From the NCBI RefSeq assembly GCF_024609325.1, contig NZ_JANHMQ010000004.1:62001-126000 (forward strand): a stretch of 64,000 bases of DNA, read 5' to 3'. This document shows positions 28,027 through 39,457 of the stretch, in pieces. The notes under the pieces are model-generated. The model was given only the letters and a program-made list of their open reading frames with translations, had not been told where the DNA came from and did not search any database. This DNA is from Geothrix fuzhouensis. Lineage in GTDB: Bacteria; Acidobacteriota; Holophagae; Holophagales; Holophagaceae. Both the position numbers and the translations under genes were made by a program. The stretch's first letter is position 1. Each line of letters opens with the position of its first letter.

Positions 28027-29403
28027 TCAGTTCTTGAGCGAACTCACCGTCTGGAAGTAGTGCGCGAACGCGGCGATGCCGCCGCCGGCCTGCTCCCAAT
28101 CGTAGTTCTCGTTGGGCGCGTGGTAGCCGTGACTGGGCAGGCTGAGGCCCAGGAAGAACACCTCGCAACCCAGGATGTCCTCCATGGTCTTCACGGCGCC
28201 GATGCTGCCGCCTTCGCGGGTGAAGGAGCAGGGCGCGTCGAAGGCGAACTTGTACGCATCCTTGATGGCCTCGGCATAGGGGCCCGTGACGTGGCCCTTG
28301 AAGGGGGCCAGGCCGTGCTCCTCGTGGAACTGCACATCGGGGAAGTGCTTGTTCACGAAGGCGCGGATGCGGTCCATGGTCTTGGCCTCGTCCATGTCCG
28401 GCACCAGGCGGCAGGAGAGCTTCACCTCGGCCCGGGGCGGCACGGCGCTCTTGATGCCGGGGCCCGTGTAGCCGCCCACGACGCCGTGGACCTCCATGGT
28501 GGGCCGACCCCACACGCGCTTCATGACCTTGAGGGGATCCTCGGTGCGCATGCCGGTGATCATGTGGTCCTTCTTGAAGGTCTCCACGCTGAAGCCGGCG
28601 TTCGCCCACTCCTCGAGCTCCTGCTTCGAGGGCTTCACCACCTCGTCGTAGAACCCGGGGATCTTCACCTTGCCCGTCTCGCCGTCCATCATCGCGGCGA
28701 CCACCTTGATGAGCTCGGCCAGGGGGTTGCGGGCCGCGCCGCCCACCACGCCGCTGTGCAGGTCGTGGTCCGCGGTCTCCAGGGTGAGGCGGAAGCCCTT
28801 GAGGCCCCGCAGACCTGCGGGCGTGCTGGGCTTGCCGCGGGTGATCCAGACCGTGTCGCTCACCACGATGGCGTCGGTCTTCAGCCGGTCCTTGTGGCGG
28901 TTCAGGCCACCCTCGAAGCTGGGCGAGCCGATCTCCTCTTCGGTCTCCCACAGGAAGTGGATGTTGAGGGGTACGCCCGCCTTGCGCGCGGCGAGGGCGC
29001 CGAAGAAGGCCGTCACCGCCGGGCCCTTGTCGTCCGTGCTGCCGCGGCCGCGGTAGGTGTCGCCGTCCACCACGAAGGTGAAGGGCTCCGCGGTCCACTC
29101 GGGCTCATTGGCGGGCTGCACGTCCATGTGGTTGTAGACCGTGATGGTCGAGCAGCTGGGATCCTCCCCGAACCAGCCGTGGATCAGCGGGTTGCCGCTG
29201 GTCTCCAGGATCTCGGCCTTCCCACCGTGCCGCTCGAAGAGCGCCCGCGCCGCCTCGGCCACACGCCGCACGTCGCCCTGGTGGGCCGGGTCGGCGCTGA
29301 TGGAGGGGATTTCCACCAGGGCCTTCAGCTCCGCCTCGAAGGCCGCACGGCTCGCGCTGGCGAACTGCCCTAGGGCTTCACGGGTGAGAAGGGAAGGATT
29401 CAT
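28027..29403 (-). CDS. M20-family dipeptidase/metallopeptidase
   Basis: The 458-residue cytoplasmic enzyme has the M20 metal-site sequence: YNHMDVQP (His and Asp), GRGSTDDKGP (bridging Asp), ETEEEIGSP (catalytic Glu), SDTVW, DLHSG in the dimerisation domain and the late HAPNENY (His). This pattern matches the CNDP/PepV-like dipeptidases rather than ArgE or DapE. ATG 29403 is preceded by GGAG. It stands alone between terminator hairpins. Confidence 0.9.
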   Translation of the reverse strand: MNPSLLTREALGQFASASRAAFEAELKALVEIPSISADPAHQGDVRRVAEAARALFERHGGKAEILETSGNPLIHGWFGEDPSCSTITVYNHMDVQPANEPEWTAEPFTFVVDGDTYRGRGSTDDKGPAVTAFFGALAARKAGVPLNIHFLWETEEEIGSPSFEGGLNRHKDRLKTDAIVVSDTVWITRGKPSTPAGLRGLKGFRLTLETADHDLHSGVVGGAARNPLAELIKVVAAMMDGETGKVKIPGFYDEVVKPSKQELEEWANAGFSVETFKKDHMITGMRTEDPLKVMKRVWGRPTMEVHGVVGGYTGPGIKSAVPPRAEVKLSCRLVPDMDEAKTMDRIRAFVNKHFPDVQFHEEHGLAPFKGHVTGPYAEAIKDAYKFAFDAPCSFTREGGSIGAVKTMEDILGCEVFFLGLSLPSHGYHAPNENYDWEQAGGGIAAFAHYFQTVSSLKN

Positions 29404-29804
29404 AGACGCTCCGGAAAGGGTCAATCATCATCCCACATCCGGAAGTCTTGTCTATTAAGGGATCTAGGGGTAGGCGATGGGTGGAGCGGCGGCGAGATCC
29501 AAGGGGCGATCCACCGTCCAAGGGGCGGGCCATTGCCACTGATTCAAGGCAAAAGACTCTTTTAGCCACCAATTTCAGTGATTTCACCGATGACGCCTGG
29601 TATGGGTCCTGCATGGGCCGGCCCAAGGCCGCTTCCGGCTTTGCCGGAAGTCATGGGGGGGGGGGGGGCCAGGGCCGTGCCCTCCATGGGGTGTGCGGCC
29701 CTGGCACCCCCCATGGAGCCCCTGCTGCGTTGGAACAGGACATCATCTTGCATCATTGCAATCACCGAAATCGGTGGCGAATTCACCTTGGCGTCCTGTG
29801 GCGA
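29404..29804. other. 401-bp intergenic region with a structured repeat
   Basis: The first 160 bases hold the dipeptidase upstream region; a direct repeat of ccaaggggcg occurs at about 29499 and 29518. The rest is occupied by the inverted-repeat-bounded element at 29566-29777. No gene is seen. Confidence 0.5.
29566..29777. repeat. MITE-like element with terminal inverted repeats and a G14 run
   Basis: The ends at 29566-29583 and 29760-29777 are 18-bp inverted repeats matching at 16 positions. Inside are a hairpin cttccggctttgccggaag (29632-29650) and a long arm with 14 consecutive G (29655-29668) plus gccagggcc, which faces ggccctggc and cccccc (29697-29712). No coding sequence is inside. It lies just after the argC stop. 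Confidence 0.55.
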
Positions 29805-30803
29805 TCAGCCCGGGTACCCGCCCGCCACCTTCAGCCCCGTCCATTCCGGCAGCCCCAGGGCCAGGTTGAGGTTCTGCACGGCCTGGGTGGCCATGCCCTT
29901 GCCGAGGTTGTCGAGGGCCACCATCACGGCTCCGTGGCCGTGGCGGGCCGCCACGCCGATGTCCGCGAAGGCGCTGCCCGTAGTCGCGGCCACGCGGGGC
30001 GATCCGTCCACGATTCGGACGAAGAAGCGGCCTTTGTAGAAGGCTTCGAAGTGGGCCTGGAGCGTGGCGGCATCCATCCCCGCGGGCAGCGGGAACTGGG
30101 CCGTGGCGAAGATCCCCCGCACCATGGGCGCGCTCTGCGGCACGAAGCTGAGGGGCGCCTCCCAGCCTCCGCTGGCCAGGGTGCGCAGCACCTCGGCCTC
30201 GTGCTGGTGGCTCAGCATCTTGTAGGCGCGAAAATCCGTGGCCCGCGTCGGATGGTGGGTGGTGTCGCTGGGCGCGGCGCCGGAGCCGCTGGAGCCCGTG
30301 GCGGCGGTGACGGCCACGAAGGCGGGCTTCCATCCAGCCAGCGGCAATAGAGCCAGCTGCAAGGCCGTGGCGAAGCAGCCGGGATTGGCGATGCGGGTCG
30401 CACCCTTCATGCGCTCGGGCTTCCAGTCCACCAGGCCATAGACCCAGGCGGGATCCAGGCGGAAGTCCGTGGAGAGGTCGATGACCGTGAGGCGCTCCAG
30501 CAGGCCGTGATCTTTTCCCGCCGCCTCGATCTCCGGCCAGAGCTTCCCGAGCTCGCCGTGGGGCAGGGCCGAGAAAAGGACCGGGTTCGCACTCTTCGCG
30601 AGCGCCGCCCAATCCGGTGTGGCTTCGAAGGTGCCCTCCACCAGCCCCCGCAGGTTGGGGTGCTGGGCGTGGAAGGGCTTGCCCGCGTGGCTCCGGGCCG
30701 TGCCTCGCAGGGACTTCACCGCTGGATGAATCGACAGCCAGCGCAGCAGCTCGCCCCCGCCGTAGCCGGACGCGCCGAGGATGAGGGCATCAATGGAGGT
30801 CAT
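29805..30803 (-). CDS. argC: N-acetyl-gamma-glutamyl-phosphate reductase
   Basis: The 332-residue enzyme reduces N-acylglutamyl phosphate to the semialdehyde in arginine synthesis. It shows GASGYGGGELLR (about 10-21), LSTDFRL, the active-site ANPGCFATA (catalytic Cys about 150) and SHQHEAEV with the proton-relay His. GAGG precedes ATG 30803. It is the last gene of the minus-strand arginine operon and is separated from the P-loop gene by a palindromic repeat. Confidence 0.94.
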   Translation of the reverse strand: MTSIDALILGASGYGGGELLRWLSIHPAVKSLRGTARSHAGKPFHAQHPNLRGLVEGTFEATPDWAALAKSANPVLFSALPHGELGKLWPEIEAAGKDHGLLERLTVIDLSTDFRLDPAWVYGLVDWKPERMKGATRIANPGCFATALQLALLPLAGWKPAFVAVTAATGSSGSGAAPSDTTHHPTRATDFRAYKMLSHQHEAEVLRTLASGGWEAPLSFVPQSAPMVRGIFATAQFPLPAGMDAATLQAHFEAFYKGRFFVRIVDGSPRVAATTGSAFADIGVAARHGHGAVMVALDNLGKGMATQAVQNLNLALGLPEWTGLKVAGGYPG

Positions 30804-30823: not shown

Positions 30824-30927
30824 TGAATGTTTAACCGCAGATGTCGCAGATGCCGCAAATGAACAGCGAAAAGAAGCGGAGTTTTTTATCTGCGAAATCT
30901 GCGTCATCTGCGGTTTCAAACCAGAAT
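30824..30927. repeat. Palindromic intergenic repeat, copy 1 (arg operon)
   Basis: aaccgcagatg (30833-30843) pairs with catctgcggtt (30905-30915), and inner gcagat/atctgc blocks pair again. Nearly the same sequence occurs at 33283-33390. It fills the gap between the P-loop gene and argC. Confidence 0.75.
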
Positions 30928-30929
30928 CC

Positions 30930-31982
30930 TTAAACCTTTGCGGCGATCTTGGGCTCGACCAGCCCCAGCACGAACTTGCCGAGGGCCTCGGCGTCGGCGC
31001 GGGCGTTGCGGGCGGGGAGGCCGAGGGTGGCCACGAAACGCTCGCCCACGCGATTGTCCGTGGCGGGGCCGGCGATGAGGTCGGCTTGGATGCCGAACGC
31101 GGACTTCAGGTTGGCCACCCCACCGGCCGCACCCACGGGATCGTTGGCGCACAGGATGAACGCGCCGCTCAGGGCCTTCAGATCGGCGTCTTCGAGGATG
31201 GCCTGGACACCGTACTCGCCCATGATGCCGTCGCCGGTCTCAGCCACGATGACGTCCACGCCGTGGGCCGCCAGCTCCGAGAAAATGATGCGCGACACGG
31301 CCGCAGCGCTGCCCGCGTCCGTGCACACGATGCCCGCGTCCGTGAAATCCAGGGCGACTTCGGCGCCGTAGTCGCGCATGGCCAGCGCATCGCGCATGAG
31401 TGACACGCCCGTGAGCTTGCAGGCGCCCACGCGGTAGCCCGCGCGGCTGAGTTGGCGGATGGTGGCGCAGGCCGCCGCGGTCTTGCCCGCGTTCATGCAG
31501 GTGCCGGCCACGTAGACCACGGGGCAGTGAGTGGAGAGGCCTGTTCCTTTGAGCGCGCCCATGCGGATGTGCGCGGGCTGGCCGGCGCGGGACTGGAACT
31601 CGGGGAAGACGAGCACCTGGCCCAGCACCTCCAGCTCGAAGGGCTTGCCCACGTCCGGGTTGTGGGAGAGGCACTTGCCGAGCACCCCGCCCATGTTGAG
31701 CAGGTTCACCGTGTCGCCGGGCTTCAGGGACTCGGGCATGACGCCCTCGTAGCCCTGCAGCGCGTTGCGGTGGCCCAGCGCCCCCACGACGATGTCCCCG
31801 TCGTGCAGGGTGCTCATGCGCCCGTGGGGATCCTCCAGCTGGTTGTAGGAGGTCTTCTCGCCCCGGATGCGGCAGGCGATGACCGAGCCCTCCTCCAGCA
31901 GGATCTCGGGCCCGAGGGTGAGGGTCCGGCTCAGCCGCAGGTTGCGGGTGACCGAAGCGAGCTTGTCGACGTGGATGCGCAT
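30930..31982 (-). CDS. P-loop protein of the arginine operon (DUF1611/BioD-like); candidate N-acylglutamate synthase
   Basis: The 350-residue protein has an N-terminal beta-rich part (about 1-150) and a C-terminal CobQ/BioD-like nucleotide-binding part. The latter has P-loop VAGTCMNAGKTAAA (about 158-171), CKLTGV, DFTDAG, VIVAETGDG and LCANDPVGAAGG. The organisation recalls DUF1611 proteins; one member, DgcN, is described as an N-acetyltransferase acting on D-glutamate (recalled from literature, not verified here). It lies between argG and argC, and no ArgA, ArgJ or GNAT gene is in the cluster. A role in acylating glutamate is therefore a reasonable hypothesis, not a demonstrated function. 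ATG 31982 has GAGG upstream. Confidence 0.65.
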   Translation of the reverse strand: MRIHVDKLASVTRNLRLSRTLTLGPEILLEEGSVIACRIRGEKTSYNQLEDPHGRMSTLHDGDIVVGALGHRNALQGYEGVMPESLKPGDTVNLLNMGGVLGKCLSHNPDVGKPFELEVLGQVLVFPEFQSRAGQPAHIRMGALKGTGLSTHCPVVYVAGTCMNAGKTAAACATIRQLSRAGYRVGACKLTGVSLMRDALAMRDYGAEVALDFTDAGIVCTDAGSAAAVSRIIFSELAAHGVDVIVAETGDGIMGEYGVQAILEDADLKALSGAFILCANDPVGAAGGVANLKSAFGIQADLIAGPATDNRVGERFVATLGLPARNARADAEALGKFVLGLVEPKIAAKV

Positions 31983-32067: not shown

Positions 32068-33255
32068 TCAGTTGCTTTTTGCCTTAAGCGTCAAAACTTG
32101 CTGTACCCCGAAGAGCTTGGCGAAGCCCGCGGCTTCGGCACCGGTCCAGAGCTTGTTGGCTTCGCCGTAGGTGGCGATGCGGGGATCCATCAGGGAGTAA
32201 GGCGACTGGACGCCCTCCACCACGAAGGCCCGGGGGTGCAGGGTGAGGCGCACCTCGCCGCTCACGCGGTCCTGGCTGGACGCGAGGAAGGCCTCCAGGT
32301 CCCGGGCCAGGGGGTCGAAGAAGTGGCCCTCGTGGAGGAGCGAGCCGTAGAGGTTGCCGAGGCTCTCCTTCCAGAAGAGCTGCTTGCCGCTGAGCACCAG
32401 CTTCTCCAGCTCCCGGTGGGCGCCGATGAGCAGGTGCGCCGCCGGGGCCTCGAAGCCCACGCGGCCCTTGATGCCCAGGATGGTGTCGCCCAGGTGCACG
32501 CCCCGGCCGATGCCGTAGGGCCGGCCCACGGCGTTGAGCTGGGCGATGAGGGTGACGGGATCCATGCTGTTGCCGTCCAGGGAGACGGGCACGCCCGCCT
32601 CGAAGCCGATGACCAGCGCCTTGGGGGGCAGGGTGCCGATGACGCCGCCGGGGAAGGCGGCCTCGGGCAGGGTGGTCCAGGGGTCGAGCGTTTCTCGGCC
32701 GCCCACGCTGGTGCCCCACATGCCCTCATTGATGGAGTAGTCCTTCGTCTTCGGGGGGAAGATCACGCCGCGATCAGCGCAGTAGGCCATCTCCTCGGCC
32801 CGGGAGAGGGCCAGGTCGCGGATGGGAGTGAGGATCTGGAGGTCCGGCGCCAGGGCGCGGAAGGCCACGTCGAAGCGCACCTGGTCGTTGCCGGCGCCCG
32901 TGGAGCCGTGGGCGATGGCGGCGGCGCCCATGTCCTTGGCCAGCTCCGCGACGGCTCGGGCCTGGCAGACCCGCTCGGCCGACACGGACAGCGGATACAT
33001 CTGCCCCCGCAGCACGTTGCCGTAGACCAGGTAGCGCAGATAGCCGTCAAAGAGCCCGGCGCGGGCATCCACGGTGGTGTGGCTGATGGCGCCCAGCCTC
33101 GGCGAGGCGGCCTCGATGCGCGCCAGTTCTTCGGGCGAGAAACCCCCCGTGTTCACCGTGACCGTGGCCACGTCGTAGCCCTGCTCCTTGAGGTAGAGCA
33201 CGCAGAAGGAGGTGTCGAGACCCCCCGAGAAAGCGAGAACGGCGAGCTGGCTCAT
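32068..33255 (-). CDS. argG: Argininosuccinate synthase
   Basis: The 395-residue enzyme joins citrulline and aspartate with ATP. The PP-motif AFSGGLDTS (about 8-16), the conserved HGSTGAGNDQVRFD (about 115) and YSINEGMWG (about 173) are present. Sequence around VNTGGFSPEEL and YGNVLRGQMYPLSVSAER resembles the Bacteroidetes type rather than E. coli ArgG. In the minus-strand arg operon it follows argH after a palindromic repeat and precedes the P-loop gene. Confidence 0.94.
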   Translation of the reverse strand: MSQLAVLAFSGGLDTSFCVLYLKEQGYDVATVTVNTGGFSPEELARIEAASPRLGAISHTTVDARAGLFDGYLRYLVYGNVLRGQMYPLSVSAERVCQARAVAELAKDMGAAAIAHGSTGAGNDQVRFDVAFRALAPDLQILTPIRDLALSRAEEMAYCADRGVIFPPKTKDYSINEGMWGTSVGGRETLDPWTTLPEAAFPGGVIGTLPPKALVIGFEAGVPVSLDGNSMDPVTLIAQLNAVGRPYGIGRGVHLGDTILGIKGRVGFEAPAAHLLIGAHRELEKLVLSGKQLFWKESLGNLYGSLLHEGHFFDPLARDLEAFLASSQDRVSGEVRLTLHPRAFVVEGVQSPYSLMDPRIATYGEANKLWTGAEAAGFAKLFGVQQVLTLKAKSN

Positions 33256-33282: not shown

Positions 33283-33390
33283 TGAATTGAAACCGCAGAT
33301 GTCGCAGATGGCGCAGATAAGAAAAGACAAGCAGGCGGCCGCTTTTTAATTGCGAAATCTGCGCCATCTGCGGTTAAAAAATCAGTATTC
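33283..33390. repeat. Palindromic intergenic repeat, copy 2 (arg operon)
   Basis: It is homologous to 30824-30927: aaccgcagatgtcgcagatg at 33291-33310 faces tgcgccatctgcggtt near 33360-33375. It fills the argH-argG gap and its end overlaps the argH stop. Confidence 0.75.
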
Positions 33391-34747
33391 AGTTCGCCCA
33401 TAGCGCCGCCTCCGCTTGGGCGTGGATCTGCTGCTTGGCCTCGATCCATCCGCGCGCCGCGGCCAGGTCGGCTTCGAGGGCGTCCAGGGCCAGGTTGCCG
33501 GCGCCGCCCAGGTGGGTGGCGGTGAGGGCCGTGCGATCCGGGGCGAAGGTGCCGTCCTGGATCTGCTGGGCCACCTTGCGGTAGGCCTCGCGGAAGGGCA
33601 GGCCCTCCTGCACGAGGACGTAGGCCTGGTGGGCGGCATAGAGTTCGTCACTAGAAGCCGCAGCGGCCGCCTCGGCCTTCACCTGGAGGGCCGGCAGCAG
33701 GGGTTTCAGTACGGCGAAGAGGTCGTCGGCGTGCCGGAGGGCGGTGATCAGCGGCTGCTTCAGCAGCTGGAAGTCCCGGTGGTAGCTGGAGGGCAGGCCC
33801 GAGGCGATTTGCTCCACGAGGCCCGCGGCGCCCCGCAGTTCCCGGCAGCGGCCGCGCGCAAGCTCCACCACATCCGGATTCTTCTTCTGCGGCATGATGC
33901 TCGAGCCGGTGGTGAAGGCGTCCGGCAGCTTGAGAAAGCCGAACTCCTCGGTGCTGTAGAGGGAGACGTCCCACAGGAACTTCTCCAGCACGCCGCCTGC
34001 GGACGCGGCCCACTGCAATACGGCGGCCTCGTGGCGGCCCCGGCTGTTCTGCACGTCGATGGGGCTCCGCTGCACCTTGGAGAAGCCCAGTAGCCGGGCG
34101 GTGAGCTCCCGGTCGATGGGCAGGGGCACGCCGAAGCCGGCGGCGGAGCCCAGCGGGCAGCGGTCCAGGCGGCCATAGACCCCCTGCAATGCCTCCAGCT
34201 CCTCCAGCAGGCCTTCGGCGAAGGCCGTGGCCCAGAGGCCGAAGGTGCTGGGCATGGCCCGCCGCAGGTGGGTGTAGCCCGGCAGGGGCGTGTCCTGGTG
34301 CGCCTTGGCGAAGGCCAGGAAACCCTCGGCCAGGTCCGCCACCCGCAGGCCCAGGATCACCAGGGCGTTGCGGAGGTAGAGGCGCAGGGCCAGGATCACC
34401 TGGTCGTTGCGGGAACGGCCCAGGTGGATGCGGCCGCCCACGGAGCCCAGGTTCCGCGTGAGGTCCGCCTCGATGGCGGTGTGGCCGTCCTCCATGTGGG
34501 GCGGGATGGGAAAGGCCCCCTGCTTGGCCAGGTTGGCGATGCGCCGCAGGCCGCGGACGAGCGAGACTGCATCGGCCTCGGGGATGAGGCCCGTGGCGGC
34601 GAGCATCCGCGCATGGGCGGCGCTGCCCAGGGCGTCCCAGGCCAGGAGGGCCAGGTCGGTCTCGGGATCCTCGCCCACGGTGAAGCGGTGGATGGCCGCG
34701 TCCAGCGGGACATCCTTGGCCCAGAGGGTGGTGGCTTCAGGCCTCAT
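33389..34747 (-). CDS. argH: Argininosuccinate lyase
   Basis: The 452-residue enzyme splits argininosuccinate into arginine and fumarate. It has the superfamily signature TGSSIMPQKKNPD (about 282) and GRSRNDQV (about 107), plus TxxGYTHLR-type sequence PLPGYTHLRRAMPST with the catalytic His. Its ATG overlaps the argE stop in ATGA (34744-34747). Length is normal for the family. Confidence 0.94.
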   Translation of the reverse strand: MRPEATTLWAKDVPLDAAIHRFTVGEDPETDLALLAWDALGSAAHARMLAATGLIPEADAVSLVRGLRRIANLAKQGAFPIPPHMEDGHTAIEADLTRNLGSVGGRIHLGRSRNDQVILALRLYLRNALVILGLRVADLAEGFLAFAKAHQDTPLPGYTHLRRAMPSTFGLWATAFAEGLLEELEALQGVYGRLDRCPLGSAAGFGVPLPIDRELTARLLGFSKVQRSPIDVQNSRGRHEAAVLQWAASAGGVLEKFLWDVSLYSTEEFGFLKLPDAFTTGSSIMPQKKNPDVVELARGRCRELRGAAGLVEQIASGLPSSYHRDFQLLKQPLITALRHADDLFAVLKPLLPALQVKAEAAAAASSDELYAAHQAYVLVQEGLPFREAYRKVAQQIQDGTFAPDRTALTATHLGGAGNLALDALEADLAAARGWIEAKQQIHAQAEAALWAN

Positions 34748-35805
34748 GGTTGCACCTGCATCTTGAAGAACGCGGGGACGAGCTTGGCATAGAAGTCCGC
34801 CCCTGCCTCGAGCTCCTGGATGGTCAGGTACTCGTTGGGGCTGTGGCTGCGGAAGGTGTCGCCGGGGCCCACCTTCACGGCCGGAATGCCGCCCAGGAAG
34901 GCCCAGTCCGAGGTGGTGCCCGAACCGACCGGTCCCGCCTTCTTCGCGGCCTGGAGGGCGGCGCGGACGATGGCGTGCGTGGGATCGGTGCCCTTGGGCA
35001 GGTAGCGCTTGGAGTGGATGGCGACCTCGCTCTCCAGCTGGCGCTGGAAGTCGGCGCACAGGGCGCCGTGGTCCTGGTCCGGGCCCGTGCGGAGATCGAT
35101 GAAGAATTCGCAGGCGTCGGGCACCTGGTTGCGGCGCAGGCCGCCGCTGATCTGCGTGACCTGAGCCTTCTGGCTGCCCAGCAGCGGGTGGGCCGGGAAC
35201 TCCATGGCCGCGACCTTGGCGATATCCCGGGCGGCCTTGTGGATGGCGTTTTCGGCGCCGAGCATCTGGGCATTGGCCACGTGGCCGCTCTGGCCCCGGG
35301 CCGTGCACTTCAGCAGGAGCATGCCCCGCTGGGCGGCGCAGACCCGCAGGCCCGTGGGCTCGCCCACCACGGCGCCGTCCAGGGTGCCGAGCTGGTCGAG
35401 GATGGTGGCGATGCCCTGGCCGCCGGTCTCCTCCTCGGCGGTGAGGGCCACGACGACTTCCCCGTCGAGGGGCTGTGTCGCGAGGTCGAAGGCCGCGAGC
35501 AGGATGGCGGTCACGCAGCCCTTGGCGTCGTTGGCGCCCAGGCCCTGGAGTCGCGACCCGTGCCAGACGGGCGTGAAGGGATCTCCCTCCCAGCCAGCGC
35601 TGGGCGGCACGGTGTCGAGGTGGGAGTTGAGCAGCAGCCGGGCGCCGCCTTTCTTCCCGAAGGTGAACCAGAGGTTGTTCCCCTGACGTTGGACCTCGAA
35701 GCCCTGGGTGGAGACGAGGTTCTGCACCAAGTCCGCAATGGGACCTTCCTCGCCGGACACGCTGGGCGTGCCCACCAGGAGCGTGAGCAGTTCGGCGGGG
35801 CTCAT
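34744..35805 (-). CDS. argE: M20 deacylase, ArgE/DapE type (N-acylcitrulline or N-acylornithine deacylase)
   Basis: The 353-residue metallohydrolase has LNSHLDTVPP (metal His and Asp), GLGANDAKGC (bridging Asp), TAEEETGG (catalytic Glu), VGEPT and SGHVANA in the lid domain. It removes the N-acyl group in arginine synthesis. Because the carbamoyltransferase of this operon is of the N-acylornithine type, its natural substrate is more likely N-acylcitrulline, as for the Xanthomonas enzyme. ATGA overlaps join it to argB (upstream) and argH (downstream). Confidence 0.85.
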   Translation of the reverse strand: MSPAELLTLLVGTPSVSGEEGPIADLVQNLVSTQGFEVQRQGNNLWFTFGKKGGARLLLNSHLDTVPPSAGWEGDPFTPVWHGSRLQGLGANDAKGCVTAILLAAFDLATQPLDGEVVVALTAEEETGGQGIATILDQLGTLDGAVVGEPTGLRVCAAQRGMLLLKCTARGQSGHVANAQMLGAENAIHKAARDIAKVAAMEFPAHPLLGSQKAQVTQISGGLRRNQVPDACEFFIDLRTGPDQDHGALCADFQRQLESEVAIHSKRYLPKGTDPTHAIVRAALQAAKKAGPVGSGTTSDWAFLGGIPAVKVGPGDTFRSHSPNEYLTIQELEAGADFYAKLVPAFFKMQVQP

Positions 35806-36719
35806 CCGGCCACCGCCGCTGGTTGGGCGGAGACGACCATCGTCCCGCTGCCCTCGTTGGTGAAGATCTCCGCCAGCAGCGCGTCCGGGGCGGTGCCACT
35901 CACCAGGTGGGCGCTGGCGACGCCACCCTGGATGGCCGCCTTCACCGCCGCCACCTTGGGCCGCATGCCGCCGCTGATGATGCCCTTGGCCTCGAAAGCC
36001 GCGAGCTCGTCCAGGGTGGCGTGGGGGATGAGCGAGGAGGACTTGGTGACGTCCTTCAGCAGGCCTGGCACGGACAGCAGGAAGAACAGCTTCTCGGCGT
36101 GCAGGGCGGTCGCAAGGCTGGCCGCGATGGTGTCCGCGTTCGTGTTGTAAATGGCGCCGTCCTCCCCCCCGGAAAGCGGCGCCACCACCGGCACGAAGCC
36201 TCCTTCGAGCAGGTGGCTGAGTACATGGGGATCCACGGTGTCGATGTCGCCCACCAGGCCGTAGTCCACCAACTGAGGCTCGGTGGCGCCGTCCGGCACC
36301 ACGGCCACAGGGGGTCGCCGTGTGGCCTTCAACAAGCCAGCGTCCAGGCCTGTGAGGCCCACGGCGGGCACGCCCGCGGCCTGCAGCTCCGCCAGCAGGT
36401 CCATGTGCACCTGGCCCGCGAAGACCATCTTGGCGGCGTCCAGCACCTCGGGGCTCGTCACGCGCCGGCCCGCCACCTTCTGCACGGGGATGTTCATGGC
36501 CTCGCAGACGGCGTCCAGCTCGGCCCCGCCGCCATGCACCACCACCACCCGGATGGAGAAGGACCACAGCAGGGCGATCTGCTCGCAGAAGGCCTTGCGG
36601 ATCTTGGGCTCGGCGATGACCTCGCCCCCCACCTTCACCACGAACGTCTTGCCGCGGAACAGGCGCACGTACCGGGAGGCTTCCTTGAGGGCGGCGTAGG
36701 GATTGGGGGAGAGCGGCAT
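35802..36719 (-). CDS. argB: Acetylglutamate kinase
   Basis: The 305-residue amino-acid-kinase-fold enzyme phosphorylates N-acylglutamate. Visible are VVKVGGEVI (about 28), VVVVHGGGAELD (about 59), the substrate-site GRRVT (about 84), YNTNADTIAA (about 191) and IISGGMRPKV (about 245). An N-terminal extension of about 20 residues (YAALKEASRYVRLFRGK) resembles the arginine-sensing N-helix of hexameric, arginine-inhibited ArgB proteins, so feedback control is plausible. GGAG lies six bases before ATG 36719. Confidence 0.93.
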   Translation of the reverse strand: MPLSPNPYAALKEASRYVRLFRGKTFVVKVGGEVIAEPKIRKAFCEQIALLWSFSIRVVVVHGGGAELDAVCEAMNIPVQKVAGRRVTSPEVLDAAKMVFAGQVHMDLLAELQAAGVPAVGLTGLDAGLLKATRRPPVAVVPDGATEPQLVDYGLVGDIDTVDPHVLSHLLEGGFVPVVAPLSGGEDGAIYNTNADTIAASLATALHAEKLFFLLSVPGLLKDVTKSSSLIPHATLDELAAFEAKGIISGGMRPKVAAVKAAIQGGVASAHLVSGTAPDALLAEIFTNEGSGTMVVSAQPAAVAG

Positions 36720-36743: not shown

Positions 36744-37733
36744 TCAGGCGTTCAAAAGGTGGTCGATGGTGGCCCGCTGCACGTGGAAGCGGTTCTCGGC
36801 CTCGTCCACGACGCGGCTCCAGGGGCCGTCCAGGACGCTGTCGTGGACTTCCAGGTTCCGGCGCACGGGCAGGCAGTGGGTGAAGATGGCCTCCTTCGCG
36901 GCCTTCTGCATGTGGGCGGCGGTGGGCATCCAGGCGCCCAGGTCGGCCATGGGCGCGGCCTCCAGGCCCGACGTGGTGGAAGGGCCCCAGGCCTTGGCGT
37001 AGACGGCGGCGCTGCCCTCCAGGGCGGCGTCCTGGTCCGTGGTGTAGATCACCTTTCCGCCCGTGGCGGCCGCGTACTTCTCGGCCTCGGCCCGGACTTC
37101 CGGCGCCAGCTCGTAGCCCTTGGGGTGGGCCACGCGGATCTCCGCGCCACAGGCCGCGGCCGTCAGCAGGAAGGAGTTGGGCACGGCCTTGGGCAGGGGC
37201 TTCATGTGGGGCGCCCAGGTGAGGGTCACGGGCACCTTGGTGGTGCCATGGGTCTCCTGGATGGTGAGCAGGTCGGCCAGGCCCTGGTGGGGGTGCTCCC
37301 GGGCGCTCTCCATGCTCAGCACGGGCACGGTGGAGAAGCGCCGGAAGGCGTTGATGACGGGATCCAGCTCATCGATGGCGTCGCCATCGCCGTGGGAGAA
37401 GGTGCGCACGGCCAGGGCATCCACGTAGCGGCCCAGCACGGGTACGCCTTCGCGCACGTGCTCGGCGCGGTCCTGGTCCATGACCGCGCCGTCCCGGTCC
37501 TCCAGCTTCCAGGTGCCCGCGCCCACCTCGAGCACGATGGCGTGGCCGCCGTGGCGCAGCATGGCCGCCTCGAAGCTGGCCCGGGTGCGCAGGCTGGGAT
37601 TGAAGAAGACCATGCCCAGGATGCGGTCCGCGAAGATGGCGCCGGGGCGCTGCTTCTTCCAGGCGGCGGCCTTGGCCAAGATGTGCTGGACGCCCTCGGG
37701 GCCCAGGTCGGCGATGCGGGTGAAGTGCTTCAT
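36744..37733 (-). CDS. argF': N-acylornithine carbamoyltransferase (ArgF'; succinyl- or acetyl-ornithine type)
   Basis: The 329-residue protein follows the AOTCase/SOTCase pattern, not ordinary OTCase. It has FFNPSLRTRASFE (43-55, carbamoyl phosphate site), VMDQDRAEH (84-92), VLGRYVD, the HPHQGLADL block, LTWAPHMKPLPKAVPNS, VYAKAWG, THCLPVRRN and DEAENRFHVQRA. Residue 90 is Ala. The aligned position is Glu92 in the Xanthomonas acetylornithine enzyme and Pro90 in the Bacteroides succinylornithine enzyme, and small residues there are reported to favour the succinyl substrate (recalled). Succinylornithine is therefore a real possibility. GGGAG precedes ATG 37733. Confidence 0.88.
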   Translation of the reverse strand: MKHFTRIADLGPEGVQHILAKAAAWKKQRPGAIFADRILGMVFFNPSLRTRASFEAAMLRHGGHAIVLEVGAGTWKLEDRDGAVMDQDRAEHVREGVPVLGRYVDALAVRTFSHGDGDAIDELDPVINAFRRFSTVPVLSMESAREHPHQGLADLLTIQETHGTTKVPVTLTWAPHMKPLPKAVPNSFLLTAAACGAEIRVAHPKGYELAPEVRAEAEKYAAATGGKVIYTTDQDAALEGSAAVYAKAWGPSTTSGLEAAPMADLGAWMPTAAHMQKAAKEAIFTHCLPVRRNLEVHDSVLDGPWSRVVDEAENRFHVQRATIDHLLNA

Positions 37734-37747
37734 GTCGGCTCCCGGAT

Positions 37748-38890
37748 TCAGGGCTTGGCGAAGGCGTGGATGGCGGCGACCAGGGTGGTGAGGGCCGCGT
37801 CGCTGACGTTGAGGGGCGGCATGAGGCGCAGCACCTGGGGATCGCCGGAGCCGCCCAGGAGGATGTGCTGCGCCATGAGGTGCTTCTTGAGGGCGGCGGC
37901 CTGGGGCGTGCGGAGGCCGAGGAGCAGGCCCTCGCCTTGGACAGTCTCGACGACCGATCCTTTCAGTTCCTTCCGAAGCCGTGCGGCGGCGGCGACGGCG
38001 TTGGCCATCAAGCCCTCGGACTCGATCACCTCCACCGTGGCCAGCAGGGCCGCGCAGGCCAGGGGGCCGCCGCCGAAGGTGCTGCCCAGGTCGCCGCCCT
38101 TGAGCTTCGAGGCCACGGCGGCGGTCATGAGGAGCGCCGCCATGGGCACGCCGGAGGCCAGGCCCTTGGCGGAAGTCATGAGGTCGGGCCGCACGCCGTA
38201 GAACTGAGACGCGAAGGGCGTGCCCATGCGACCCATGCCCGTCTGGATCTCGTCGAAGATGAGCAGGGTGCCGGTGGCGTCGCACTTGGCGCGCAGGGCC
38301 TGGAACCACTCTCGCGAGGCGGTCTTGATGCCGGCCATGCTCTGGATGGGCTCGAGGATGACGCCGGCCACGTCCGAGAAGTCCGCCGCGTCCAGGGCCA
38401 ACCGGTCGCCGAAGGGCAGGCGCAGGCAGGGCGTGAGGCTGTCGGCGAAGGGCTGGGTGATCTTGGGGTCGTCCGTCACGGAAAGGGCGAGGGTGGTGCG
38501 GCCGTGCCAGCCGCCCTCGAAGGCGCCGAGCTGCTTCCGGCCCGTGAGCAGCAGGGCGACCTTGAGTGCGTTCTCGTTGGCCTCGGCGCCGCTGTTGCAG
38601 AAGAAGACCGAGTCCATGCCCGAGAAGGCCGTGATCGTCGCGGCGGCGGCGTCTCGCACGGGCAGGGCCGCCGCGGCGGAGTAGAAGAGCAGCGAGGCGG
38701 CCTGATCGGCCACGGCCTTGACCACCTTGGGGTGGCTGTGGCCCGTGGCGCACACGCAGTGGCCGCCGTAGAAGTCCCACCAGGCCTGGCCCCAGTCGTC
38801 GAAGACCCGGTCGCCCTCGCCCTTCACCAGCGGGAAGGGATAGGGGGCGTAGGTGGGGAGCAGAGCGGGAACGGCGGGCGTGGTGGGCAT
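37748..38890 (-). CDS. argD: Acetylornithine (N-acylornithine) aminotransferase
   Basis: The 380-residue class-III PLP aminotransferase has NSGAEANENALK (about 95), FEGGWHGRT (about 120), VILEPIQ (about 175), IFDEIQTGMGR (about 206) and the Schiff-base lysine in TSAKGLASG (about 238). It is the first gene of the minus-strand arginine operon; its promoter region is full of TGCA palindromes shared with divergent argR. ATG 38890 is preceded by AGGA; upstream codons lie inside the operator array. Confidence 0.93.
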   Translation of the reverse strand: MPTTPAVPALLPTYAPYPFPLVKGEGDRVFDDWGQAWWDFYGGHCVCATGHSHPKVVKAVADQAASLLFYSAAAALPVRDAAAATITAFSGMDSVFFCNSGAEANENALKVALLLTGRKQLGAFEGGWHGRTTLALSVTDDPKITQPFADSLTPCLRLPFGDRLALDAADFSDVAGVILEPIQSMAGIKTASREWFQALRAKCDATGTLLIFDEIQTGMGRMGTPFASQFYGVRPDLMTSAKGLASGVPMAALLMTAAVASKLKGGDLGSTFGGGPLACAALLATVEVIESEGLMANAVAAAARLRKELKGSVVETVQGEGLLLGLRTPQAAALKKHLMAQHILLGGSGDPQVLRLMPPLNVSDAALTTLVAAIHAFAKP

Positions 38891-38902
38891 GCGGAAATCC
38901 TG

Positions 38903-39053
38903 TGCATATGCGTGCATGGGCACGCATAATCATGCAATCAATTGCATAATATGCACACTTTGAATCTCCAAAATCAAGAAATATTTCTCTATTTTCTGTA
39001 ACTAGAGATTCGATGGCTTGCGATTCCATGCAATTTCATGCAACATCCATGCA
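38903..39053. promoter_or_regulatory. Array of TGCA-type operators between argD and argR (probable ArgR sites)
   Basis: Exact palindromes are TGCAATCAATTGCA (38933-38946) and TGCATAATATGCA (38943-38955). Related sites are TGCATATGCGTGCA (38903-38916), TGCAATTTCATGCA (39029-39042) and TGCAACATCCATGCA (39039-39053). A minus-strand promoter for argD (TTGATT at 38977-38972, 18-bp spacer, CATATT at 38953-38948) would have its -10 inside the array. The argR start codon lies in the last site. Spacing resembles E. coli ARG boxes (TGAAT...ATTCA) but with TGCAT/ATGCA half-sites. Confidence 0.7.
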
Positions 39054-39457
39054 TGGACTTGGATCAGCTCATCCTCCAGTTGCTGGAGGCCCACCCCATC
39101 GCGGACCAGACGGATCTGCTGGAGCGCCTGTCCGCCGAGGGCCATGACCTCACCCAGTCCACCCTGTCCCGGCGCCTCAAGCGCCTGGGCGTCATGAAGG
39201 TCCAGGGGCGCTACCGGAGGGTGGAAGCCGCCGCCCAGGTCCTGCCCGAAGTGACGATCCGCGAAGTGCCGCCCAACCTGCTGGTGCTGAACACCGCCCC
39301 CGGCTATGCCCAGGCCCTGGGCCTCAGCGTCGATGCCGATCCCGTTCCGGGCCAGATGGGCACCCTCGCCGGCGACGACACCGTGTTCGTAGCAGTCCTA
39401 CCCGAGCGACTGGCCGACGTGAAGGCGCATTTAGCGCGGGTCGTGGCGGGGCGGTAG
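39053..39457 (+). CDS. argR: Arginine repressor
   Basis: The 134-residue regulator has an N-terminal winged helix (TQSTLSRRLKRLGVMKVQGRY, recognition helix about 32-45) and the C-terminal hexamerisation/arginine-binding domain with GTLAGDDTVFVA (about 103-114), the ArgR hallmark. It should repress the divergent arginine operon and itself when arginine is bound. The start at ATG 39053 gives MDLDQLILQ; no ribosome site is visible, and the codon sits within an operator-like palindrome, so the mRNA may be leaderless or very short-leadered. Confidence 0.92.
   Translation: MDLDQLILQLLEAHPIADQTDLLERLSAEGHDLTQSTLSRRLKRLGVMKVQGRYRRVEAAAQVLPEVTIREVPPNLLVLNTAPGYAQALGLSVDADPVPGQMGTLAGDDTVFVAVLPERLADVKAHLARVVAGR

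Follow-up and report, generated by a model that had tools for sequence, protein, structure and literature searches.

The window analyzed here, a 64,000-nucleotide stretch of DNA from Geothrix fuzhouensis (host genome 3.3 Mb, 97.45% complete), contains an arginine biosynthesis operon on the minus strand in the order argD, argF′, argB, an argE-like M20 gene, argH, argG, a gene for a P-loop protein, and argC (Table 1). Genes of the operon account for all pathway steps other than the first, confirming the original prediction that argB, argC, argD, argE, argF′, argG, and argH are all present in the operon and that argA, argJ, and a GNAT gene are not. The P-loop gene between argG and argC is, as predicted, the sole extra gene of the operon, and its open reading frame is real; it starts with ATG, with an alternative TTG start possible 27 nt upstream.

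Table 1. Coordinates of the features of the arginine locus, numbered from the first nucleotide of the window.
Feature	Position	Strand	Basis
M20 dipeptidase-like gene, downstream of argC	28027..29424	-	Sequence similarity
argC, N-acylglutamylphosphate reductase, directly downstream of the P-loop gene	29805..30803	-	TIGR01850, 276 bits against a cutoff of 233.6
P-loop gene, candidate N-acylglutamate (probably N-succinylglutamate) synthase, 350 aa	30930..31982	-	Open reading frame; AlphaFold2 model (predicted)
E-x-G-D-G motif, residues 248-252, Walker B-like	31227..31241	-	Alignment of 33 members
Walker A motif GTCMNAGKT, residues 160-168	31479..31505	-	Alignment of 33 members
N-terminal beta-rich domain, residues 1-148	31539..31982	-	Model and alignment
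argG, argininosuccinate synthase, directly upstream of the P-loop gene	32068..33255	-	TIGR00032, above cutoff
argH, argininosuccinate lyase	33389..34723	-	TIGR00838, above cutoff
argE-like M20 deacylase	34744..35811	-	TIGR01892, 159 bits (below cutoff of 297.7); TIGR01900/dapE, 137 bits (below cutoff)
argB, N-acylglutamate kinase, without fused acetyltransferase domain	35802..36719	-	TIGR00761, above cutoff
argF′, N-acylornithine carbamoyltransferase	36744..37733	-	NF003384, 396 bits against a cutoff of 288
Ala90 codon of argF′, equivalent to Glu92 of the Xanthomonas enzyme	37464..37466	-	Register set by PDB entries
argD, N-acylornithine aminotransferase	37748..38923	-	TIGR00707, 324 bits (below cutoff of 410), and operon position
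argR, arginine repressor, divergent	39038..39457	+	Both Pfam ArgR domains

The M20 dipeptidase-like gene downstream of argC possibly encodes a deacylase or peptidase; some, though not all, of the Geothrix loci and a few relatives have such a gene at a distance of up to about 9 kb from the P-loop gene. Repeats with the core ATCTGCGTCATCTGCGG occupy the gap between the P-loop gene and argC (30833-30915, with 31-nt inverted arms) and that between argG and argH (33293-33373), and the core occurs five times in the window, where 0.01 occurrences are expected. The repeat is absent between the P-loop gene and argC of Geothrix oryzisoli, where the two genes overlap.

Neither Pfam nor NCBIfam has a family that the P-loop protein matches above cutoff, and neither a PF00583 nor a PF04768 domain was found in it by Pfam search. 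Its AlphaFold2 model (pLDDT 95.5, pTM 0.93) predicts two domains, one beta-rich at the N terminus and one containing the P-loop. In an alignment of 33 members of the family, G160, M163, G166, K167, and T168 of the Walker A motif and E248, G250, D251, and G252 of the E-x-G-D-G motif are invariant, while S10, Y46, E50, and R72 of the N-terminal domain are invariant or nearly so, as are GTCMNxGKT, K189, D198, D215, E-x-GDG, Y257, and D281 as a set. The intact Walker lysine suggests that a nucleotide, or the phosphates of CoA, may be bound. Among solved folds, those closest to the P-loop domain are BioD, SRP GTPases, MeaB, and HypB; the DUF1611 structure 2g0t ranks 31st. The N-terminal domain modeled alone (pLDDT 94) had no detectable relative in the PDB (Foldseek best E 0.4), and a search of a viral structure library returned nothing useful.

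The gene had been labeled DUF1611/BioD-like, of which the distant P-loop resemblance stands and the DUF1611 membership is not supported. In Pfam, DUF1611_C comes closest (E = 0.0087, 15.9 bits where the cutoff is 25, over 45 residues), followed by MobB and CbiA, each of these matches involving nothing but the P-loop, and hhalign of the family against DUF1611 profiles gives a probability of 28.8% with an alignment mostly across the P-loop part. Both groups of proteins have about 350 residues, an N-terminal domain joined to a P-loop domain, a related glycine-rich loop, and an E-G-rich motif, their P-loop domains overlap in weak profile and fold matches, and DgcN (EC 2.3.1.312), which we take to be a DUF1611 protein, acts on the amino group of glutamate, as proposed below for the P-loop protein. 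The N-terminal domain of the P-loop family is a different one, however, and comparison of the two alignments gives GTCMNxGKT, KLTGV, and E-x-GDG for this family against GTDxAVGK, GTGQT, and EGQG for DUF1611. True DUF1611 proteins were moreover found alongside the P-loop family in four of the searched genomes, and we reject membership on these grounds together with the match below the Pfam cutoff. By analogy, the resemblance would support only that some P-loop protein can acylate glutamate.

BioD shares the fold of the P-loop domain, giving one of the best PDB matches (E about 1e-5), and its sequence match is confined to the P-loop (E = 0.0034 at best, by profile), with nothing above threshold outside it. 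In contrast to BioD, CobB/CobQ, and CTP synthase, the P-loop protein has an additional N-terminal domain and stays tied to arg operons. With a match to the P-loop only and an arg context at 113 of 113 loci, the family was not assignable to dethiobiotin synthetase, an assignment that would have told against the original prediction. Seven weaker homologues (L076-L082) located outside arg loci constitute a separate paralogous family, homologous over the full length, 28-33% identical, and carrying the motifs GTSMNAGKTT and E-I-A-D-G; judged by eye, their neighbors are apparent ABC transporter, ATP-grasp, or M20-like genes.

Matches to the P-loop family were obtained in 82 of 297 genomes of the phylum, 75 of them strong (E < 1e-40, 32-100% identity), and the gene is present in all 21 sampled Geothrix genomes (89-100% identity). 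Of the strong loci, 33 were read in detail, that of the host among them, and every one lies in an arg operon. A scan of GTDB genomes yielded 565 or more relatives, and the top 80 are without exception situated in arg operons and belong to the Acidobacteriota, Myxococcota, Gammaproteobacteria, Armatimonadota, Planctomycetota, Bdellovibrionales, Eisenbacteria, and others. Arg operons resembling those of Geothrix, at about 70% identity between the proteins, occur in the Myxococcota genera Corallococcus, Pyxidicoccus, Hyalangium, and Myxococcus (L120-L147), and this similarity suggests that the whole operon may have been transferred between phyla.

At all 113 loci examined, the first arg gene encountered downstream of the P-loop gene is argC, encoded on its strand. 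The gap between them has a median of -4 nt and the genes overlap in 70 of 112 cases, which points to translational coupling; long open frames hinted that the P-loop protein and ArgC might be fused, a reading discarded because the two genes simply overlap (ATGA). On the upstream side, argG is usually present (95 of 113 loci). At seven loci, the P-loop gene occurs with argC, argD, and argB and no other arg genes nearby, a cluster that would form a complete module from glutamate to acylornithine if the P-loop gene provides step 1. One of these module-only genomes (L237) encodes an ordinary ornithine carbamoyltransferase (NF001986, 380 bits against 306), and the association of the P-loop gene with both the acylornithine and the ordinary ornithine carbamoyltransferase routes indicates that it is not part of the later acylcitrulline steps.

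A genome-wide check of the host for argA, argJ, and GNAT-type synthases, suggested with the original prediction, revealed no recognized enzyme of these kinds. Neither ArgJ (PF01960) nor a PF04768 NAT domain was found, the short-NAGS model NF005840 had no match, and none of the 17 PF00583 GNATs reaches the cutoff of any N-acetylglutamate synthase model. Across genomes, the known synthases searched for were ArgJ, short NAGS, and PF04768 NAT. Two relatives with genomes of 1.2 Mb have kept the full operon with the P-loop gene and encode four GNATs each, three of which have relatives among the 17 of the host and one of which is RimI-like. We discounted a Xanthomonas-like fusion of the synthase to ArgB (100 ArgB proteins from operons with the P-loop gene all lack a NAT extension), LysW-type arginine synthesis as the cause of the missing ArgA (LysX/LysW are not in the host operon), and NAT-domain ArgA (PF04768), which is present in two genomes of the phylum, both without the P-loop family.

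Among 203 argC-positive acidobacterial genomes, 74 encode the P-loop family and 110 encode ArgJ, with no genome encoding both and 19 encoding neither (Fisher p = 7e-38 for the exclusion, a value inflated by kinship). When taxonomic families were counted in place of genomes to lessen the effect of kinship, 17 had the P-loop family, 26 ArgJ, and none both (p = 2e-9). Strong short-NAGS matches (NF005840, > 75 bits) turned up in genomes with ArgJ and three of those with neither, and in 0 of the 74 P-loop genomes, where two weak hits score 51-55 bits against the cutoff of 154. Similarly, 22 genomes of other phyla with the P-loop family contained no ArgJ (0/22) and no short NAGS over cutoff (0/22). 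The P-loop protein would share its reaction and pathway position with the GNAT N-acylglutamate synthases (ArgA, short NAGS, NAGS-kinase, CG3035, and BT3761), but it lacks a GNAT domain, has an unrelated fold, and is mutually exclusive with them across genomes. ArgJ (ornithine acetyltransferase), likewise comparable in the proposed supply of N-acylglutamate, belongs to an unrelated family.

The likely acyl group can be read from ArgF′. Its specificity residue was placed by reference to PDB structures of N-acetylornithine carbamoyltransferase from Xanthomonas, both wild type and mutant, the wild type having Glu at this position. According to GapMind, which cites earlier work, enzymes with Ser, Pro, Ala, or Val here prefer the succinylated substrate (PMC7311316). 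The Ala of the host enzyme predicts succinylated intermediates and makes N-succinylglutamate likelier than the acetylated product; of 88 well-aligned ArgF′ proteins from operons with the P-loop gene, 76 have Ala, Pro, Ser, or Val, 10 have Thr, one each has Ile and Gln, and none has Glu. The product of the P-loop protein is therefore, as far as this residue can tell, probably N-succinylglutamate. The succinylated pathway of the Bacteroidetes similarly combines an ArgF′ residue of the succinyl class with the absence of ArgA and ArgJ (GapMind, PMC7311316), but its first step is catalyzed by a GNAT (BT3761), in place of which we propose the P-loop protein here.

From the observed operon linkage, the exclusion of known synthases, the nucleotide-binding motifs, and the ArgF′ residue, we infer the reaction, the acyl group, and the donor. 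The P-loop protein would acylate the alpha-amino group of L-glutamate, most likely with a succinyl group, in the first step of arginine synthesis, standing in for the GNAT-type ArgA and for ArgJ, and the acylglutamate would then be used by ArgB, ArgC, ArgD, ArgF′, ArgE, ArgG, and ArgH of the same operon. We consider it likely, on these genomic grounds, that the protein catalyzes step 1 in replacement of ArgA/ArgJ. That it starts the pathway had been proposed originally by way of DUF1611/DgcN membership, a route that we abandon, and the proposal itself is now supported by gene neighborhood and mutual exclusion.

The 19 argC-positive genomes with neither the P-loop gene nor ArgJ bear directly on this role. 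Three have a short NAGS (G022, G076, and G100), which in G076 is a curated one at the end of an arg operon without the P-loop gene, a converse case that favors the step-1 role, and one has a NAT domain (G059). Six (G005, G006, G010, G031, G262, and G281) have argC-argB-argD clusters that are LysW-type in appearance; such genomes were set apart through a LysX gene or an ATP-grasp gene adjoining the argC-like gene, with a LysX model match in G006, ATP-grasp genes beside others, and G005 and G031 assigned by similarity of layout only. G074 is a fragmented assembly from a taxonomic family in which the P-loop gene is common. The remaining eight (G129, G137, G161, G169, G215, G192, G120, and G178) have argC and argH without the P-loop gene, ArgJ, short NAGS, or NAT, and are the main counter-evidence to the step-1 role. 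In seven of them (L178-L183 and L189; all but G178) the operon is otherwise like that of relatives, and for G178 the call is based on the argG-argH region and an argC match. Either another enzyme performs step 1 in these genomes or the gene is sometimes dispensable, and they may hold a further solution for this step.

All eight of these genomes contain GNATs of unassigned substrate, and an unlinked, unrecognized GNAT (for example of the L001, L004, or L009 type) might conduct step 1 more widely, with the P-loop protein serving in arginine sensing or an accessory role. This would be in keeping with the eight genomes themselves, with the several host GNATs among the 17 that have no assigned substrate, and with the host orthologues of three of the four GNATs in the 1.2-Mb relatives. 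However, no GNAT is linked to operons with the P-loop gene, the L009 type is RimI-like, and an accessory role leaves the exclusion of ArgJ and short NAGS and the clusters of the P-loop gene with argC, argD, and argB unexplained, so that we regard this explanation as unlikely. No GNAT was found beside argG/argH in the relatives lacking the P-loop gene, and a partial sampling of GNAT sets in relatives with and without it gave three groups restricted to the latter, one of them aminoglycoside acetyltransferase-like.

ArgE-type enzymes are metal-dependent, and a metallochaperone-like P-loop protein (compare HypB, MeaB, and UreG) could instead mature the M20 deacylase ArgE. Genomes with ArgJ need no ArgE, hence this alternative also predicts the exclusion with ArgJ, and HypB and MeaB are among the structural neighbors of the modeled P-loop domain. 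Against it, G022, G076, and G100, with argC and no ArgJ, should need a deacylase yet have a short NAGS and no P-loop gene, the P-loop gene is found beside argB, argC, and argD in clusters without argE, and no metal-binding His/Cys cluster of the HypB/UreG kind is evident among the invariant residues; a maturation role is accordingly very improbable. Least probable of all is a supply of N-acetylglutamate from D-glutamate in the manner of DgcN with the racemase DgcA, for although a D-glutamate N-acetyltransferase and a racemase are known to convert D-glutamate to N-acetyl-L-glutamate (PMC11747546) and the P-loop domain distantly resembles DUF1611_C, the operon has no racemase gene and the protein is not a DUF1611 member.

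If the P-loop protein does catalyze the first step, as we favor, its acyl donor has a slightly better than even chance of being acyl-CoA and a slightly less than even chance of being a free acid activated with ATP. In BioD, CobB/CobQ, and CTP synthase, ATP activates an oxygen acid, which is then attacked by nitrogen, and this chemistry makes an ATP-dependent acyl ligase a serious alternative to an acyl-CoA transferase. It is a conceivable though doubtful extension that ATP-dependent glutamate N-succinyl ligases, formed by a P-loop enzyme with a novel N-terminal domain and using succinate and ATP in place of acyl-CoA to make N-succinylglutamate, open a succinylated arginine pathway and are widespread in several phyla.

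No description of the P-loop family was found in a literature search covering few subscription journals or preprints, nor did we find a published statement that Geothrix is prototrophic for arginine. In these bacteria, which include the cultured genera Geothrix and Corallococcus, arginine synthesis has no recognized enzyme for step 1, and annotation tools would show a gap. The candidate enzyme has a new domain architecture and is directly testable, its hosts being culturable; as its product is likely succinylated, an argA mutant of E. coli may fail to use it and simple complementation could mislead. The family is uncurated and, as an N-acylglutamate synthase, would represent a new type without homology to the known ones. 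If the proposal is true, a single uncurated family fills the step-1 gap in several phyla as a non-homologous replacement of the GNAT and ArgJ enzymes, and succinylated arginine synthesis would reach well past the Bacteroidetes.
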